Positions 180-32,173 of a stretch of DNA of 32,173 nucleotides are shown one piece after another; positions within the stretch are counted from its first letter, which is position 1; each line of letters opens with the position of its first letter. The notes below the pieces were generated by a model, which saw only the letters and a program-made list of their open reading frames with translations, ran no database searches and had not been told where the DNA came from. The translations under genes and the position numbers were made by a program. Origin of the DNA: a virus; the IMG/VR virus record IMGVR_UViG_3300033155_001185, positions 1 to 32,173 of that record, one strand, 5' to 3'.

Positions 180-1505
180 TCACTGTCCTAGTGTTGCGTT
201 AGCTTGATTCATGAATTGTTGTGTTCCTAGCTGCGCTCCCTCTTCAGGAGGAGCTTGCACTGGAGCTTCAGGAGCTTGTCCTTGTGGCTTGCGTGACTTA
301 AGTAACTCTTTCTGTCTATTAAGTAAGATAGTTCTGAGCTGTGGAGTATCCTTAATTTTAGAATCTAAAATCTGTAACTGTTTTACCATAGCGTCAGGAG
401 AAGTAGCATTAAGAATGATCTCGTCAGCACTAAATGACTTAGCAGGAGTCTCTTTAGTAGTTCCAAATAGTCCTTTTAGACTAGGACCAGTAAACTTACT
501 AAGACCAGATCCGCTAAGTAACTCATCTTTCCTATCTACGAACTCTCCAAAGTCTAACTGAGCTTCAAACTGCCCAGCTTTCTTTGCAATAGAATCATCT
601 AAGGTAGCAGCTTGTCTCTTAACTTGATCTATCAATGCTTGGACTTTCTCTTCGTTAACAGTAGGTGCGATCAGTAAGTTACTCAAGTCTGACATTAGAC
701 CTAAGAAACCAGAACCACTCAAGAATGGCTTCACATCTTTCTCAGTAAGCTGTCCTGGCTGAGCTGCTCTACCTAACGCGATACCTGCAGTATCAAAGGC
801 AGTTCTAATTTGTTCTCCAGTCATCGTAGTCTTACCCTTAAAGGAAGCTTGAATGATACTTAAATTTCTCTCCGCTGTAGCTAGGGCATCTTTCATAGTG
901 TTAACTTTCTTAAATCGACTGTTAACTTCCTTATTAACAAGCTGTAATTTCTTATCAAACCTAACATCTTTAGCTGTCTCTAATGCGTTCTGCTCTTTCT
1001 GAACACCTAGAAGCTTTTCCATCTTTTTGTTACTCTCAATAAAGTTAGTTTTAGAATCTACGTTAGAAAAAGCAACAGCAGCTGACTGTGCCATCGACTC
1101 AGCAAGCTCTGGTGTCATGCCAGCCTGCTCTAGAACTTTTGTGTTAAGTGAGATGGCAGTTTTAATGGCTGCTGCGTACTCAAGATCTTCAGCTAACGCT
1201 ATCTTATTGTCTTCTGAGATTCCTTCAGCACCTAAAGCAGTAGCAGTGTCATCATATTTTTGCATCAACACTTTTTTAATCTTAGGATTAGCTGTCTTAA
1301 GAATTACGTCCATCCTATTCTTAAGCTGCGTATATTTAGCTATATTTAAGCTAGTCTTAGCTGTTGCAGTCTCAGCCTTCTTCTTATTTACGTCAGCAGC
1401 AAGAGCAGCTGCCTGCATCCCTGTTCCGACTGTCTTCTGAAATGCGTTAAGACTATTATCTGTGTCGAAGCTTTTTGCTAACACAATTTCACTTAATGAT
1501 GCCAT
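180..1505 (-). CDS. Putative internal virion / DNA-ejection protein
   Basis: The product has 441 residues, is almost entirely predicted helix, rich in Ala, Lys and Gln, and has no membrane segment or enzyme motif. The C-terminus (about residues 404-435) is a Pro/Gln-rich tail, a composition that continues into the next partial gene. The start ATG overlaps the previous stop as TAATG and has AGGAGAAGG upstream. Long soluble helical proteins encoded after the tail tube and fibre genes of podoviruses are commonly internal capsid proteins ejected with the DNA. This is a call from gene order and composition, not from a recognised family. Confidence 0.5.
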   Translation of the reverse strand: MASLSEIVLAKSFDTDNSLNAFQKTVGTGMQAAALAADVNKKKAETATAKTSLNIAKYTQLKNRMDVILKTANPKIKKVLMQKYDDTATALGAEGISEDNKIALAEDLEYAAAIKTAISLNTKVLEQAGMTPELAESMAQSAAVAFSNVDSKTNFIESNKKMEKLLGVQKEQNALETAKDVRFDKKLQLVNKEVNSRFKKVNTMKDALATAERNLSIIQASFKGKTTMTGEQIRTAFDTAGIALGRAAQPGQLTEKDVKPFLSGSGFLGLMSDLSNLLIAPTVNEEKVQALIDQVKRQAATLDDSIAKKAGQFEAQLDFGEFVDRKDELLSGSGLSKFTGPSLKGLFGTTKETPAKSFSADEIILNATSPDAMVKQLQILDSKIKDTPQLRTILLNRQKELLKSRKPQGQAPEAPVQAPPEEGAQLGTQQFMNQANATLGQ

Positions 1506-1771
1506 TACCTTCTCCTGTTCTTACTTACGATCTGTTCAATTCTAACTTTCTTATCAAACTCTTTTAAGATTCCTTTGATACCAGGAAAAGTTCTGAAGCC
1601 ATCACCGAAGCGATTCTTCAAAGCTCTTAGTAGTCTTATCTTACCTACTGTACTATTAGGAAGCTCGGGCATCTTCTCACCAAGTAAGCCAGGAAGATCT
1701 TTAAGTCCCTCTGGAATCTTAGCTCCCATTACTTCATTTAACGTTGCTGCACTCTTCTTAGGTCGTGACAC
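1505..1771 (-). CDS. Small basic protein with GKI-LL-LK-GD-F repeat-like module
   Basis: This is an 88-residue basic protein with a GTG start preceded by GGGAGG, ending in KNRRR. Residues about 43-74 (GKIRLLRALKNRFGDGF, then P..IKGILKEFD) match the pattern of residues about 107-139 of the protein at 3041-3574 (GKILLMARLKERVGDNF, then P.VRSILTQFD). The two proteins therefore share a short helical module, although they are separated by two other genes. The function is unknown. A structural or ejection-associated role is suggested only by its position between two putative ejection proteins. Confidence 0.6.
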   Translation of the reverse strand: MSRPKKSAATLNEVMGAKIPEGLKDLPGLLGEKMPELPNSTVGKIRLLRALKNRFGDGFRTFPGIKGILKEFDKKVRIEQIVSKNRRR

Positions 1772-14764: not shown

Positions 14765-15022
14765 CTAGTTGTCTCCTTGATTAAGTTTCTTGTAGGCTGC
14801 ATTTCCTTTAGTCTTCTTTCTCTCTAATTCATCTACAAGATCCCTAATATAGCTTAATTGTGCTACGAGAGGCAGGAAGTTTGTTCCTCCAGCTCGAAAT
14901 TCAATACATAACTTAGCTATAAGATCTTCGCAGTGCTGTTTGAACATTGGAACGAAGAGCCCTTCCGTGGCGTTAATCAACCTGCCATCATTCATCTGCT
15001 CTACTAATTTCTCTACGTTCAC
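14765..15022 (-). CDS. Small helical protein, hypothetical
   Basis: The 85-residue protein uses a GTG start at 15022 with AGGAG upstream and abuts the scaffold-like gene start. It is predicted helical (EKLVEQMNDGRLI, FKQHCEDLIAKLCIEFR, LSYIRDLVDELERKK) with a basic C-terminus. It lies between the portal and scaffold genes, where small head-assembly proteins are often found. No function can be assigned. Confidence 0.55.
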   Translation of the reverse strand: MNVEKLVEQMNDGRLINATEGLFVPMFKQHCEDLIAKLCIEFRAGGTNFLPLVAQLSYIRDLVDELERKKTKGNAAYKKLNQGDN

Positions 15023-15023
15023 T

Positions 15024-15254
15024 TCATACTCCTGCGTACGCTATGTGTTTCTTATATTTCTTAATTATCCTCTTAATGATCCAACCTTCTGTTTTAAAGA
15101 ATCCTGCTATCTCTTCCACGCCATTACCATTATCAAAGGCAGCTACAATCGAGGCATGAGTTTCGGGATGAAATGGAACTTTAAGTACCTTGCACCCCTG
15201 CGGCTCCTGTCGCAGAGCTTGCAGGAAATTCGGCCTGTGGAATCTGTCCTTCAC
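15024..15254 (-). CDS. Small basic HTH-like protein, long overlap with portal gene
   Basis: The GTG start at 15254 is preceded by AAGGAG nine bases upstream, both inside the portal gene, so 74 nt are read in two frames. There is no alternative in-frame start after the portal stop. Residues about 32-70 (HASIVAAFDNGNGVEEIAGF, then KTEGWIIKRIIKKYKKH) look like a helix-turn-helix with a basic recognition helix. The function is unknown. A DNA-contacting role in packaging or regulation is a possibility only. Confidence 0.55.
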   Translation of the reverse strand: MKDRFHRPNFLQALRQEPQGCKVLKVPFHPETHASIVAAFDNGNGVEEIAGFFKTEGWIIKRIIKKYKKHIAYAGV

Positions 15255-17067
15255 TTGTTAGATCTCCTTGATTACCCGCAGCACCAGCTTGCGGAATTTG
15301 ACTCTGTTCATTACCTGTTTCTTGCAAGTTCTCTACAGCACTCGTATCAGGACCCCTTTCGTCAGCTTGTAGCTTATAGGTGTCAATATCGAGACTCTTC
15401 ATTACTTCAGTGAGAAGCTTACCGAAATCATATTTCTTTGCATACTCTTCAAGTAGTATTTCTGAGCTAGCGACTGTTTGCAGCAAAGCTTGAATCTTCG
15501 TAAAGTCCCTTTGCTTATTCAATGTCGCACTAACTCCAAAGACTCTAAACAGGCAGGCACTCACTGTCTCAGCGAATAGCTCCTCATTACTCAAAGCTTG
15601 TATAGCTTCTCCTCTTTGTCTTCCGATTAATGCTTTCGTCTTTTCAGTATTTAAGTCAGTAATATGCTGCGCTATAACCTTCCAGCTCTTCTCGAGTAAC
15701 TTACTCAGGTAAGAAGACTCAATTTGCTTAGCCATTCCAGTAAACATTGAAGTAATACTCTGACTAGCTTCAATTACCTCTGTCGCTTTAACTTGCCTGA
15801 AACTTTGAACACCTTGTCTTAGGTCATTCGTAAGTGCTGACGCATTAAACTCTTGTGAGATTACATTGAGTACATTAAGTCCGTCAGCTGGTACTGTCGC
15901 AGTGTCTACTCTCTCTAGTACTTTCGCACCTGGAGGAGCCGTATTGTTCATTCGTAGTGTGTCACCAGGAAAGATTCCATTTTCCACTTGCGCAGGATCA
16001 TCTAACCAGCTCTCTCTAATTTGTTTAATTCCATGAACTGACATTAATCCACCATCTAAGGTTAGATTAAATAGTTCATTGATTGCTTTATTTAGCATCG
16101 TAGGAGCGTCCATTAATGCCTTTCCCCAGACTGAGTGAGGAACTGACATTATCGGTGCTACCACAAAAGGACTCTCTTTATGCCAGAAGGGATTAGGAGT
16201 AGGCTTTTGAATTACCCAAGCATCGTCAGCTATCGTAGTTACAATATTCTCATGAAGTATTTCTCCCCTGTCTCCTAGTATCGTTCCCCAAATCTCAGTA
16301 ACCTTAACTTGATTCCTGTAACCTGAGTTCGTAGAATTTTGTCCTGTCTCTCTACTCTTCTCAAACTTATCGTCAAGACTCTGATTTCCTTGTCTAGACT
16401 TTAGGAGTTTAACTTGCGCAGGATCGTAGATTGCATCCTTACCTTTACTTAACTTTTCTATTTCATGAAAGTCCATGTAGATGTCTTGCATCTCATAGAG
16501 TCCGCGACCTGTGGGATCTGGAAAGAAATCTTCCTGCCTTACTAGATCTATTTGTAATTGCCACATCTGATCCTCTACTCTTATTAACTTAGTAGAGTAC
16601 GTATTATCTTTGAGACTTTCTTTAGTCTCGAAGCGAGGAGCTGGAACCATCTTCCCTGTAACTTTCGCTATCATTAAGCTTCCTAGAAGTCCTAGCTTTA
16701 CTGAATCACCAACAAGCTTTAGAAAGTTAATTGACTCTAGCTGACGATTTAAGATTCGTTGTATCTCTCCAGATTTAATCTTAAGCATATCATCGCTGAC
16801 TCCTTCTTCAGGATCCACTCTGAACCAGTCACCTATGTCTACCAGTCCTTGTTGGATGAAATTAGAGATCTGTTCGACGGCCATACTTTGCTTAGGCAAG
16901 AACTCCGCAGACTGTCCTTCCTTCTTATGAGAGTAATCTTGACGAAGATGATACGCCTCAAAGTTCATCTTATTCTTTGCCATTCTGATATGCTTCGCTT
17001 GCTCACTCTCTTTACGATAGTTAGATAAAGCTTTTATAACTTCCTGATTTTTTGCATCTGTTGCCAT
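15181..17067 (-). CDS. Portal (head-tail connector) protein
   Basis: The 628-residue protein forms the dodecameric DNA-entry vertex. Features that fit podovirus portals are: the helical N-terminus (YRKESEQAKHIRMAKNKMNF), AVEQISNFIQQGLVDIGDWF with a following VDPEEG, and a beta-rich wing (KVTEIWGTILGDRGEILHEN). Then come PFVVAPIMSVPHSVWGKALM, ATEVIEASQSITSMFTGMAK and the long stem helix, and the C-terminal Gln/Gly/Ala-rich tail. It overlaps the end of the large terminase gene by 34 nt, with AAAGGA before its ATG. Terminase-portal adjacency is the canonical packaging order. Confidence 0.85.
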   Translation of the reverse strand: MATDAKNQEVIKALSNYRKESEQAKHIRMAKNKMNFEAYHLRQDYSHKKEGQSAEFLPKQSMAVEQISNFIQQGLVDIGDWFRVDPEEGVSDDMLKIKSGEIQRILNRQLESINFLKLVGDSVKLGLLGSLMIAKVTGKMVPAPRFETKESLKDNTYSTKLIRVEDQMWQLQIDLVRQEDFFPDPTGRGLYEMQDIYMDFHEIEKLSKGKDAIYDPAQVKLLKSRQGNQSLDDKFEKSRETGQNSTNSGYRNQVKVTEIWGTILGDRGEILHENIVTTIADDAWVIQKPTPNPFWHKESPFVVAPIMSVPHSVWGKALMDAPTMLNKAINELFNLTLDGGLMSVHGIKQIRESWLDDPAQVENGIFPGDTLRMNNTAPPGAKVLERVDTATVPADGLNVLNVISQEFNASALTNDLRQGVQSFRQVKATEVIEASQSITSMFTGMAKQIESSYLSKLLEKSWKVIAQHITDLNTEKTKALIGRQRGEAIQALSNEELFAETVSACLFRVFGVSATLNKQRDFTKIQALLQTVASSEILLEEYAKKYDFGKLLTEVMKSLDIDTYKLQADERGPDTSAVENLQETGNEQSQIPQAGAAGNQGDLTSEGQIPQAEFPASSATGAAGVQGT

Positions 17068-18572
17068 AACTCATCCTTTTGCATAAAGCCTGAAGCATAT
17101 CTTGGTCTCGGTATTGATACACTTGTTCTGCCTGAAATAGCTCTCACACCACTAGCAAGATACTGGTAGGCATCGTGTGCGTGAGAGAAGTGATCTTTAA
17201 TTGGTCGTAACTTACTAGGCTCTATCTCTCCTGCTCTATCTGGAAATCTATAACCACCTTCAAAACCTTTAACTAGCGTAGGGCAGTCAGGAACATAAAT
17301 CTGAAATGCTGGTCCTTCCTTTCCTAGCTTCTGTAGAAAGTAAACTACGTTACTTCGCCTTGCTTCCCAAGTCACGGGACCTGGCTGCGGGTTAAAGCCA
17401 TTCTCATGTAAAATTCTAAAGCAAGTATTAGCGTCTGTATCTTTTCTAAACGTACCACTAGGATCACCATAACACAGCCAATTCTTACGAAGATCAGAAT
17501 ACTCTGGATAGTACATTCTAAGTTTGCTTATTACTTCTGGAATAAAAACATCAGCAGCCTTATTAACTTCTACGAACTCTTTGAAGATTACTAGCTGGTC
17601 TCCTTGAAGTTGCCCCACTACTGCTGCAGGAGTCAGACCGAAGTCAAAGCCAATTAGCATTGGAAGTCCTGGCTGAGGAGTAGGCTCTTCCGTTATCTTA
17701 TGTATTGGAAGAAATTCTGGGAAGACTGGAAAGCCTTCAAAGGTATCCCAAGAAAGTTCATACTCTCTCAAGTATTCTATTAATGGCATAGAGTTTTTAA
17801 TTGACTCTCTATACTCGTCACTTCTCTTTTTTGGATCCGCTTTATAGTGTAATTCCATTACTGCAAATCTATTCTTATTGTTGTACCACATCTTAACACC
17901 TTCCATAGGTGTCTTGAAGTCAGCGACGTGTTCTGCAATCTCGTCAGCGATCACAGAATCCATCCTATCGTAACAGAGTCTCTTAAAGAAGCCAGGAGCG
18001 GGAGAGGAGACAAGACTCATTCTTCCACCACCGTCAATCGTAGGAAAGGAGGCAGAGTAGAATTTCTGTGCGTGTTCCCAGAAAGCACACTCATCACCTA
18101 AGATTCCAGAGAAGGTAAACTGTCTTAGCTGATCGGCTCCTTGCGGGAAACCTCTAATGACAGAATTAATCTCTGGAAATTCTAGCGTACAATACTTATC
18201 TTTATATTGTGGAATTAGATCTCTAGGAAGTTTATCTTCGTCAATATGATCCAGTATGAACTTCGCTCTCTGCACTAACTCATGAGCATCATCTTCCTTC
18301 TTACTAACAAAAGCTTGAAATCTACCTTTATTAAATATCGTATCCCAGAGATACAGTGATATGAAAGTCCAAGAGACAGTCATTCGTCGAGACTTAGGAA
18401 CTGCGAAGAGTGGGTACTTCTGCCAAGTCTTGCACAGTAGTTTCAGATACTCACGATTAGGGAATCTCTTAATGGGATTATGCTTGTCTACTTGATCTAA
18501 CGTAAACACACACTCCGTTATGAAAGCCCACGCGTCATTTTTGTACCTAACATAGTTCTCTAAGTGATTCAT
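17034..18572 (-). CDS. terL: Terminase large subunit (packaging ATPase and nuclease)
   Basis: The 512-residue packaging motor starts at ATGA overlapping the previous stop. The ATPase part has a Walker A-like PKSRRMTVSW (59-68), the non-classical form common in phage terminases, and Walker B GILGDE with D160-E161. The RNase H-like nuclease part carries the acidic residues IGFDFG (D310), CYGDPSG (D370) and a C-terminal DHFSHAHDAYQYLASG (D460/D467). All key residues are present, and the length matches full-size TerL. It acts with the portal (downstream) and a TerS-like protein. Unusually, the latter is separated from it by about 4.4 kb. Confidence 0.92.
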   Translation of the reverse strand: MNHLENYVRYKNDAWAFITECVFTLDQVDKHNPIKRFPNREYLKLLCKTWQKYPLFAVPKSRRMTVSWTFISLYLWDTIFNKGRFQAFVSKKEDDAHELVQRAKFILDHIDEDKLPRDLIPQYKDKYCTLEFPEINSVIRGFPQGADQLRQFTFSGILGDECAFWEHAQKFYSASFPTIDGGGRMSLVSSPAPGFFKRLCYDRMDSVIADEIAEHVADFKTPMEGVKMWYNNKNRFAVMELHYKADPKKRSDEYRESIKNSMPLIEYLREYELSWDTFEGFPVFPEFLPIHKITEEPTPQPGLPMLIGFDFGLTPAAVVGQLQGDQLVIFKEFVEVNKAADVFIPEVISKLRMYYPEYSDLRKNWLCYGDPSGTFRKDTDANTCFRILHENGFNPQPGPVTWEARRSNVVYFLQKLGKEGPAFQIYVPDCPTLVKGFEGGYRFPDRAGEIEPSKLRPIKDHFSHAHDAYQYLASGVRAISGRTSVSIPRPRYASGFMQKDELWQQMQKIRKL

Positions 18573-28601: not shown

Positions 28602-28933
28602 CGGAAGAAGAAGCAAAGAAAGAGTCAAAGATGACTCGAATTACTAACTCAATGCAGAATGAATTAAAAATGCACTGGAAGACTTGGAAGAGACCATTAA
28701 AGCTGTACCAAGTTTCCGCAGCATTTAATAGAAAGATCACATCTCTTGGTTACACGACAATAGAGTTCGTAACTAAATTAGATAAGCAAGAGAAAATAAT
28801 CTATCTGATGTCACCACTAGGCAAGAGGTATGTTTTTCCAATGGAAGCTCTCGGAGATATGAACAGAGATGAGCTATTAGAGGAAATTAGGGATCTTGAC
28901 TCTCAAGAATTAAAACGAAAGGAAAAGAAATGA
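28598..28933 (+). CDS. Basic early protein, hypothetical
   Basis: The 111-residue protein has GAGGGAGACAAC before ATG. It is highly charged with a Trp/Lys-rich segment (ELKMHWKTWKRPLKLYQVSA), a beta-like centre (YTTIEFVTKLDKQEKIIYLM) and a charged C-terminal helix (NRDELLEEIRDLDSQELKRK). There is no recognised domain. It overlaps the next gene by four bases. Confidence 0.55.
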   Translation: MTEEEAKKESKMTRITNSMQNELKMHWKTWKRPLKLYQVSAAFNRKITSLGYTTIEFVTKLDKQEKIIYLMSPLGKRYVFPMEALGDMNRDELLEEIRDLDSQELKRKEKK

Positions 28934-31312: not shown

Positions 31313-31353
31313 AGCCCCTTGGTTTTGTTCTTAACATATCGAGGGGCTTTTTT
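31313..31353 (+). terminator. Rho-independent-like terminator after nuclease gene
   Basis: AGCCCCT (31313-31319) pairs with AGGGGCT (31342-31348), seven base pairs plus a possible T-G pair, around a 22-nt loop, and T6 occupies 31348-31353. The long loop may make it weak. The 3' arm GAGGGG also lies seven bases before a GTG start, so hairpin formation would hide that ribosome site. Confidence 0.65.
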
Positions 31354-31446
31354 GTGGAACCAGCTGATGTCATATTTATAGGAATAACTATTAGCTTACT
31401 CACAGGAGCACTTTTTATTTATTGGATACTGAGGGAGAGATTATGA
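31354..31446 (+). CDS. Small single-span membrane peptide, GTG start
   Basis: The 30-residue frame (VEPADVIFIGITISLLTGAL, then FIYWILRERL) starts with GTG just after the terminator T tract and overlaps the next ATG. It has one clear membrane span with a basic inside end. Its only ribosome site is the GAGGGG in the 3' arm of the terminator hairpin. Real coding is plausible because of the exact ATGA coupling, but it could be chance. Confidence 0.4.
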   Translation: MEPADVIFIGITISLLTGALFIYWILRERL

Positions 31447-31754
31447 ACAGCAAACATAAATTCAAATGTAAAAGTTTTGGCCAAGATGTTTATTACCTGG
31501 CAGCGGAAGTAAATAAAATGCTAAGTGAGGGTGTTGAGGTTTATGGTAACGATACGCAATTTGATATTATAAAAAATCCAAGGCCAGATGCAATTAACGG
31601 CTGTACACATAAGGCACTTGTAATTAACATCGAGCCGATAGTTAGGGAAACTGCTGAAGATGTTTTAAGAGCTTATATTAAAGCTTGGGAAGGCGGCCCA
31701 GATTTCCCGGGTAAGGAATTAGTTGAAAGAGCAAAGGCAGTATTAAATGAGTGA
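31443..31754 (+). CDS. Early protein, hypothetical (103 aa)
   Basis: The start is ATG at 31443 with GAGGGAGAG upstream; the frame extends to 31422 without a better site. It encodes a small alpha/beta protein (KHKFKCKSFGQDVYYLAAEV, then a helix-rich C-terminus VRETAEDVLRAYIKAWEGGP). Two cysteines (C9, C54) are present. No family is recognised. It ends 8 nt into the next gene and lies downstream of the terminator, so it may have separate transcription. Confidence 0.55.
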   Translation: MNSKHKFKCKSFGQDVYYLAAEVNKMLSEGVEVYGNDTQFDIIKNPRPDAINGCTHKALVINIEPIVRETAEDVLRAYIKAWEGGPDFPGKELVERAKAVLNE

Positions 31755-32034
31755 CAGTGAATTTGAGGGGGCGCGTGATAAGCTATTTAAAGAGGGAAGG
31801 CTTTCTGAGGGCGATTTGCATATTGCTACAGTCTGGTCTAACTGGGCAAGAGCTTACTGCATGAATGGTATGGTTCAAAATAGTCTACCTTCAGATAGTA
31901 TAGCTGTTGAGAAGTCTTCCGCTGATAAGTTGGCAAATGCCATTGAGAAGTTCTGGATATCCGGTGCAAGTATGAATAAACACTATTACGAAGATATGAT
32001 TAAAGAGTTAAAAGAATACAGGGGCTTAGACTAA
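31747..32034 (+). CDS. Early protein, hypothetical (95 aa)
   Basis: The 95-residue acidic helical protein (EFEGARDKLFKEGRLSEGDL, TVWSNWARAYCMNGMVQNSL, DKLANAIEKFWISGASMNKH) overlaps the previous gene by 8 nt with no separate strong ribosome site, so it is likely coupled. There is no known domain. It is the last gene before the tRNA-like sequence. Confidence 0.55.
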   Translation: MSDSEFEGARDKLFKEGRLSEGDLHIATVWSNWARAYCMNGMVQNSLPSDSIAVEKSSADKLANAIEKFWISGASMNKHYYEDMIKELKEYRGLD

Positions 32035-32063
32035 CAAGTGCATGAGTTTTACATAAAAGAGAT

Positions 32064-32139
32064 TAAAGTCTAGCTCGGTTTTTAGAGCACTTGACCGATA
32101 ATCAAGAGGTCCCAGGTTCGAGGCCTGGTCCCTGTACCA
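32064..32139 (+). tRNA. tRNA-Ile(GAT)-like sequence with defective acceptor stem
   Basis: The D arm (GCTC 32073-32076 with GAGC 32085-32088), the anticodon arm (CTTGA / TCAAG, loop CCGATAA, anticodon GAT at 32097-32099) and the T arm (CCAGG / CCTGG, loop TTCGAGG) are intact. CCA is encoded at 32137-32139. The 5' acceptor strand (TAAAGTC) pairs with the 3' strand (TCCCTGT) at only two of seven positions, and position 33 is C, not T. It is therefore either a decayed tRNA gene or the tRNA-derived part of a phage attachment site. Working tRNA function is doubtful. Confidence 0.6.
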
Positions 32140-32173
32140 AGTTTTGACAGATTTAGAATTAATATTGGGGTAT

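Follow-up and report, generated by a model that had tools for sequence, protein, structure and literature searches.

A tRNA-Ile(GAT)-like remnant near the end of a phage contig, probably a broken tRNA gene

Near the right end of an incomplete virus record of 32,173 bases (the window, by which we mean the whole stretch of DNA analyzed) lies a tRNA-Ile(GAT)-like remnant. In our view, this remnant was quite probably once a tRNA-Ile(GAT) gene carried by the phage as cargo and is now broken and probably without function. Many phages carry tRNA genes in this way. Judged by its sequence, the locus is clearly related to phage tRNA-Ile(GAT), and it combines clear tRNA descent with the loss of parts for processing and folding, as is expected of a tRNA pseudogene. 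Its parts, together with the reading frame directly upstream, are as follows.

31747-32034, + strand: ORF of 95 aa, directly upstream of the remnant; its start overlaps the end of ORF 31422-31754 (ORF list)
32018-32024, + strand: ACAGGGG, a possible displaced 5' acceptor strand within the 3' end of ORF 31747-32034 (sequence)
32064-32139, + strand: the whole tRNA-Ile(GAT)-like remnant, 5' acceptor strand position through CCA (phage tRNA-Ile(GAT) model, RF00005)
32064-32070, + strand: place of the 5' acceptor strand, unpaired with 32129-32135 (2 of 7 pairs)
32071-32088, + strand: T8-A9 and D arm, with the stem GCTC/GAGC intact and the loop lacking A14, G18 and G19 (position table against 65 distinct phage controls)
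32090-32106, + strand: anticodon arm, stem with 5 of 5 pairs, loop CCGATAA (RF00005, phage controls)
32097-32099, + strand: anticodon GAT, with C33 at 32096 (read within the anticodon arm)
32112-32128, + strand: T arm, stem with 5 of 5 pairs, loop TTCGAGG (RF00005, phage controls, phage model)
32129-32139, + strand: 3' acceptor strand TCCCTGT, discriminator A and encoded CCA (sequence, phage controls)

Three intact arms and a missing acceptor stem

The initial annotation held that everything from the D arm to CCA folds as a tRNA, and this is borne out: Rfam RF00005 matches 32071-32128 with 34.8 bits (gathering score 29), over model positions 8-63 of 71, which cover the D, anticodon and T arms and leave the acceptor stem outside. 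The D, anticodon and T stems are intact, with 4, 5 and 5 pairs, and the sequence reads CTTGA/TCAAG in the anticodon stem, AGGTC in the variable loop and CCAGG/CCTGG in the T stem. A GAT anticodon arm, a T arm with TTCRA, a discriminator A and CCA, all expected of tRNA-Ile(GAT), are present at the locus. The 7-base-pair acceptor stem is missing, since only two of the seven pairs form between the seven bases before T8 (32064-32070) and 32129-32135; the 5' acceptor strand is thus unpaired, as had also been claimed. ARAGORN, one of the tRNA callers suggested at the same time, called no tRNA in the window at default settings.

When introns were allowed, ARAGORN proposed a tRNA-Leu(tag) over 32010-32139, which was rejected because it has several acceptor mismatches and ignores the good anticodon arm. 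The remnant is the sole RF00005 match in the record, and ARAGORN finds no other tRNA there. Insertion of a jumping element into a tRNA was likewise rejected: the expected second tRNA copy is absent from the window, where the next-best match covers 13 bases, at 28703.

Comparison with phage tRNA-Ile(GAT) genes

The degree of damage was judged against control tRNAs from other phages. The pattern with which we scanned viral_contigs required T8-A9, the D stem, GATAA and portions of the anticodon stem; the acceptor stem, D loop and T arm were free to vary, and position 33 could be only C or T. The scan returned at least 119 stretches, 80 of which were made into loci, and all 80 (L081-L160, from IMG/VR) were read. 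After L142, which is ended by the locus edge, was dropped, 79 controls with a readable 3' part remained, among them 65 distinct sequences. Seven acceptor pairs form in 65 of the 79 controls listed, six in 13 and five in one (L138, for which the wrong T arm was apparently parsed), so that at least 6 of 7 pairs are found in 78 of 79 phage controls listed versus 2 of 7 in the remnant. ARAGORN calls a tRNA-Ile(gat) in 79 of the 80 control loci listed, the exception being L142.

A covariance model of phage tRNA-Ile(GAT) was built from 35 controls; 45 loci stayed outside the model, and 25 of these were scored. The model matches 32064-32136 with 57.1 bits (E = 2.3e-17). The target tRNAs of the 25 held-out loci score higher without exception: 24 lie at 80.2-93.7 bits (L117 and L127, with equal scores, look like one sequence) and L153 at 62.5 bits.

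The D loop, GGTTTTTA (32077-32084), carries G14, T18 and T19. The bases A14, G18 and G19 are kept in 65, 65 and 63 of the 65 distinct controls listed, respectively, and all three are changed in the remnant. Counted by locus, A14 is present in 80 of 80 controls listed, and GG stands at the columns of positions 18 and 19 in 76; the remaining four have GG one column earlier, at which the remnant has TT. The initial annotation did not mention the loss of A14, G18 and G19. These D-loop changes are better evidence of damage than position 33.

At position 33, the initial annotation had reported that U33 is replaced and had taken this for damage. The first part stands, since the remnant has C33 rather than U33, but the second does not: C33 occurs in 60 of the 80 phage tRNA-Ile(GAT) loci listed (T in 20) and in 50 of the 65 distinct sequences, the scan having admitted only these two bases. 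Bacterial tRNA-Ile(GAT) generally has T33, as does ileV of E. coli K-12. C33 is accordingly the usual state among these phage tRNA-Ile(GAT) genes and points to no decay. ARAGORN accepts 79 of the 80 controls, most of them with C33, and position 33 therefore cannot separate broken from working phage tRNA-Ile(GAT) genes here. In practice, C33 alone is no ground for calling a phage tRNA-Ile damaged.

The C33 bias in phage tRNA-Ile(GAT) might fit with anticodon-loop changes that evade tRNA-cutting defenses. It has been proposed that phage tRNAs carry anticodon-loop changes by which they escape such defenses (PMC10264068); in its available portion, the main text of that paper contains neither "position 33" nor "isoleucine." A literature search on position 33 of phage tRNAs brought up a paper on RloC (PMC2610378) and none on the C33 of phage tRNA-Ile.

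The remnant has T at position 29 and A at position 41, while C29 and G41 are each found in 51 of the 65 distinct controls listed. T29/A41 is a two-sided change that preserves the pair, which suggests past selection on the gene within its own lineage, prior to the damage.

The phage and its relatives

Among the gene products of the window are a large terminase subunit, a portal of the SU10 type, a major head protein and a PD-(D/E)XK exonuclease. Named phages share only 24-39% identity with its terminase and exonuclease; in IMG/VR, the major head protein has relatives at 48 loci and the exonuclease at 3. Integrases and tRNAs were sought in the window and in 15 records holding related loci, which derive from 15 of the 51 loci L006-L056 and include fragments. 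Five related contigs are 41.9-43.1 kb long, and one of them, G006, has 43,144 bases with a 36-base direct repeat at its very ends and looks complete. The first and last 400 bases of the window share no stretch of 10 bases or more, which marks the contig as a fragment; the full genome is probably about 42-43 kb long, and about 10 kb would then be missing.

The closest contig fetched is G001 (head protein 82%, exonuclease 54%), and the matching structural genes of G001 and G006 follow the order of the window. Proteins of related phages map to the structural genes, the exonuclease and a few small ORFs of the window. The exonuclease gene is followed by genes for an AAA ATPase and a family A DNA polymerase, directly in L007 and past small genes in L006. 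In related records, the replication genes are followed in turn by relatives of the gene at window 1505-1771. This order suggests that the stretch past the right edge of the window probably holds replication genes of this type. In L006, a single protein encoded at 14876-17155 joins an N-terminal uracil-DNA-glycosylase-type domain to a C-terminal DNA polymerase A; its L007 counterpart gave no such N-terminal match.

No tRNA like the remnant was found in these relatives. RF00005 matched none of the 15 related records at E values up to 1, ARAGORN called no tRNA in any of the 51 related loci, and the phage tRNA-Ile(GAT) model matched none of the 29 loci of related phages searched with it. ARAGORN with lowered thresholds was discarded as uninformative, as it gave matches throughout the relatives. 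In viral_contigs, exact-pattern scans for a close relative with the same tRNA returned 0 matches, as did a terminase scan for a close relative. That the tRNA was not found in related records, many of which are fragments, is as expected of dispensable cargo.

How the gene may have been lost

Of the two options in the title of the initial annotation, an attachment site or a dying tRNA, the latter is supported, since the 5' acceptor strand is gone and three highly conserved bases of the D loop have been replaced. The acceptor stem and the D-loop bases are needed for the 5' cut by RNase P, for charging and for the locking of the D and T loops. We envisage that the phage once carried a phage-type tRNA-Ile(GAT) gene as dispensable cargo and that a rearrangement upstream replaced its 5' end; the arrival of the orphan ORF 31747-32034, for which no relatives were found in PHROGs, Pfam, the related loci, phages or viral_contigs, was perhaps this rearrangement. 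The transcript of the broken gene would have lost the acceptor stem and, with it, the RNase P cut, charging and the lock between the D loop and the T loop. The loss may well be recent, as none of the 14 pairs in the three arms has been lost.

Some features sit less easily with a dead gene. The damage is clustered at the 5' side, unlike the spread left by neutral decay, and this clustering suggests that the 5' end was replaced by rearrangement rather than worn away slowly. TAGCTC survives between the two damaged patches, so that either two events or some remaining selection is needed. The 3' acceptor strand could also pair fully with a stretch 46 bases upstream. Finally, the remnant ends 34 bases from the end of the contig, where an assembly error may have occurred.

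The last of these points could mean that reads from different strains were joined near the contig end and that no single genome has the odd 5' side. The remnant starts 110 bases from the end, which suits such an artifact, but the D-loop substitutions stand beside an intact D stem, which is not the mark of a simple join, and the two ORFs directly upstream are open and overlapping. We therefore think a misassembly unlikely. Just before the contig end, window 32149-32166 is an 18-base exact match to L006 5631-5648 (E = 0.008, in a small database). The L006 stretch sits in a 428-aa ORF (L006:5269-6555), and DLELI is encoded on both sides in one frame; the match may reflect the beginning of a related gene, or it may be fortuitous.

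The upstream partner raises the question of whether the tRNA is interrupted rather than truncated. Here, ACAGGGG at 32018-32024 would be the 5' strand, with a 46-base insert (32025-32070) between positions 7 and 8 and the acceptor stem formed across it, perhaps closed by a TAGAC/GTCTA helix (32027-32031 with 32068-32072). ACAGGGG pairs at all seven positions with 32129-32135 (six Watson-Crick pairs and one G-T), and both predicted folds of 32018-32138, minimum-energy and centroid, contain six of the acceptor pairs. The chance of a full partner is about 1.5-3%: with G-T allowed, one is present in 97 of 6,270 sixty-base (1.5%) and 187 of 6,260 110-base (3.0%) sense-DNA stretches of the phage, which overlap and rest on 9 occurrences.

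Against this arrangement, the strand falls within the final codons of ORF 31747-32034, an ORF that begins inside the end of the previous gene, and it is thus explained as coding DNA. The closing helix would consume T8 and A9 and is absent from both predicted folds, as is the anticodon arm. The fold of 32018-32138 is just 1.84 standard deviations better than that of shuffled sequences, with 9 of 200 shuffles folding as well, and the D loop is broken all the same. The arrangement has no match in the relatives searched. An interrupted tRNA is, in our view, very unlikely, and the ACAGGGG match is probably chance.

Farther upstream, after the exonuclease gene, an inverted repeat seen by eye at window 31313-31353 (AGCCCCT/AGGGGCT with a 22-base loop, then a T run) resembles a terminator; it went unreported by a scan limited to loops of 3-8. 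If this terminator-like repeat is real, the two small ORFs and the tRNA remnant would form a separate unit.

The initial annotation had also put forward a reading in which attP is the 3' portion of a tRNA-Ile gene of the host; the phage would integrate into that gene, and its integrase would lie beyond the right edge. A 3' tRNA part that runs to CCA and is preceded by an ill-fitting 5' part is the form that an attP takes, and as the window is a fragment, the stretch past its right end is unseen. However, exact searches with the 3' block (20 bases) and the anticodon arm (21 bases) gave 0 matches among the 84,980 species of genome_contigs (a scan run without a positive control, on a collection from which short contigs are absent and the host species may be missing). 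The comparison with host tRNA-Ile(GAT) genes that had been recommended thus yielded no identical stretch, and integration into a host tRNA-Ile gains no support.

The evidence on integrases, whose absence would have counted against attP, is mixed. PF00589 has no profile match in the window or in 12 of the 15 related records (many of them fragments), including G006 and G001, and PF00239 has none in any of the 16 records. A tyrosine integrase, matched by PF00589, is present in the other three, G013, G014 and G015, which are the most distant by head protein (39-44% identical to that of the window); their integrase regions are 99.97-100% identical over 3,444 bases, and the three are therefore counted as one case. 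Lysogeny is accordingly not foreign to the wider group, which seems to hold a temperate branch (G013-G015; L057-L059) beside integrase-free members. In L006 and L007, on the other hand, it is the AAA ATPase and DNA polymerase A that come after the exonuclease, and a DUF3987 protein is found in L007 and in L062, a piece of G001.

The extent of the remnant also argues against attP. The sites of tRNA-targeting integrases fall into anticodon-loop, T-loop and 3'-end classes, and the tRNA-derived part here includes the 5' strand of the D stem, to the left of the usual sites; C33, moreover, is the usual base in phage tRNA-Ile(GAT). A related treatment of the sites of tRNA-targeting integrases is given in the available part of PMC8371274. 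With no block match in genome_contigs, no integrase in the window or in 12 of the 15 related records, and both D-stem strands within the tRNA-derived part, an attachment site is very unlikely. More generally, a lone 3' tRNA part in a phage contig is not to be read as attP without a matching host tRNA and an integrase.

Seven plasmid records match the remnant (identity 77-90%, with 21-40% of the query covered); the gene table for them names no tRNA but lists no RNA genes at all. One E. coli genome matches the remnant at a tRNA-Lys with 80.7%. These matches were considered as pointers to a host, and neither set yields one.

It is hardly to be expected that 46 inserted bases, reaching into the end of a protein gene, separate the acceptor stem from the D arm and that the locus then makes either a larger, working tRNA whose D loop is unusual or a structure resembling a tRNA with a role outside translation (for example, as a decoy for tRNA-cutting defenses or an RNA-processing signal).

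Comparison with known systems

A broken cargo gene, the reading that we prefer, places the remnant beside intact tRNA-Ile genes of other phages. DNA similar to it occurs in 378 phage records, and a tRNA-Ile is annotated in 29 of 40 among the matches listed. The tRNA-Ile(GAT) genes of Providencia phage PSTCR5, Stenotrophomonas phage Pokken and Klebsiella phage phiA85 resemble it in the GAT anticodon, the T arm and the encoded CCA, with 81-85% identity over the aligned part. The anticodon loop is CCGATAA in the remnant, Pokken and phiA85 and CTGATAA in PSTCR5. In all three phage tRNAs the acceptor stem is complete and the D loop normal, and ARAGORN calls each of them; none of this is true of the remnant.

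The attP of tRNA-integrating temperate phages is like the remnant in being a 3' tRNA part that reaches CCA without a matching 5' strand. Unlike such sites, the remnant retains the D stem, has no integrase in the window and shares its block with no species genome searched.

Degenerate tRNAs in phages offer a further parallel. The available text of one report describes predicted tRNA pseudogenes in T4-like phages (PMC1524935), and that of another describes a degenerate tRNA in phage CBA120 that follows tRNA genes including Ile (GAU) (PMC3184105). As far as these accounts go, the remnant resembles them in being a degenerate tRNA in a phage, but it stands alone in the known part of its genome and its specificity is still legible. 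Degenerate phage tRNA genes of this sort are already in print, and the remnant, which in itself matters little, is an ordinary find.
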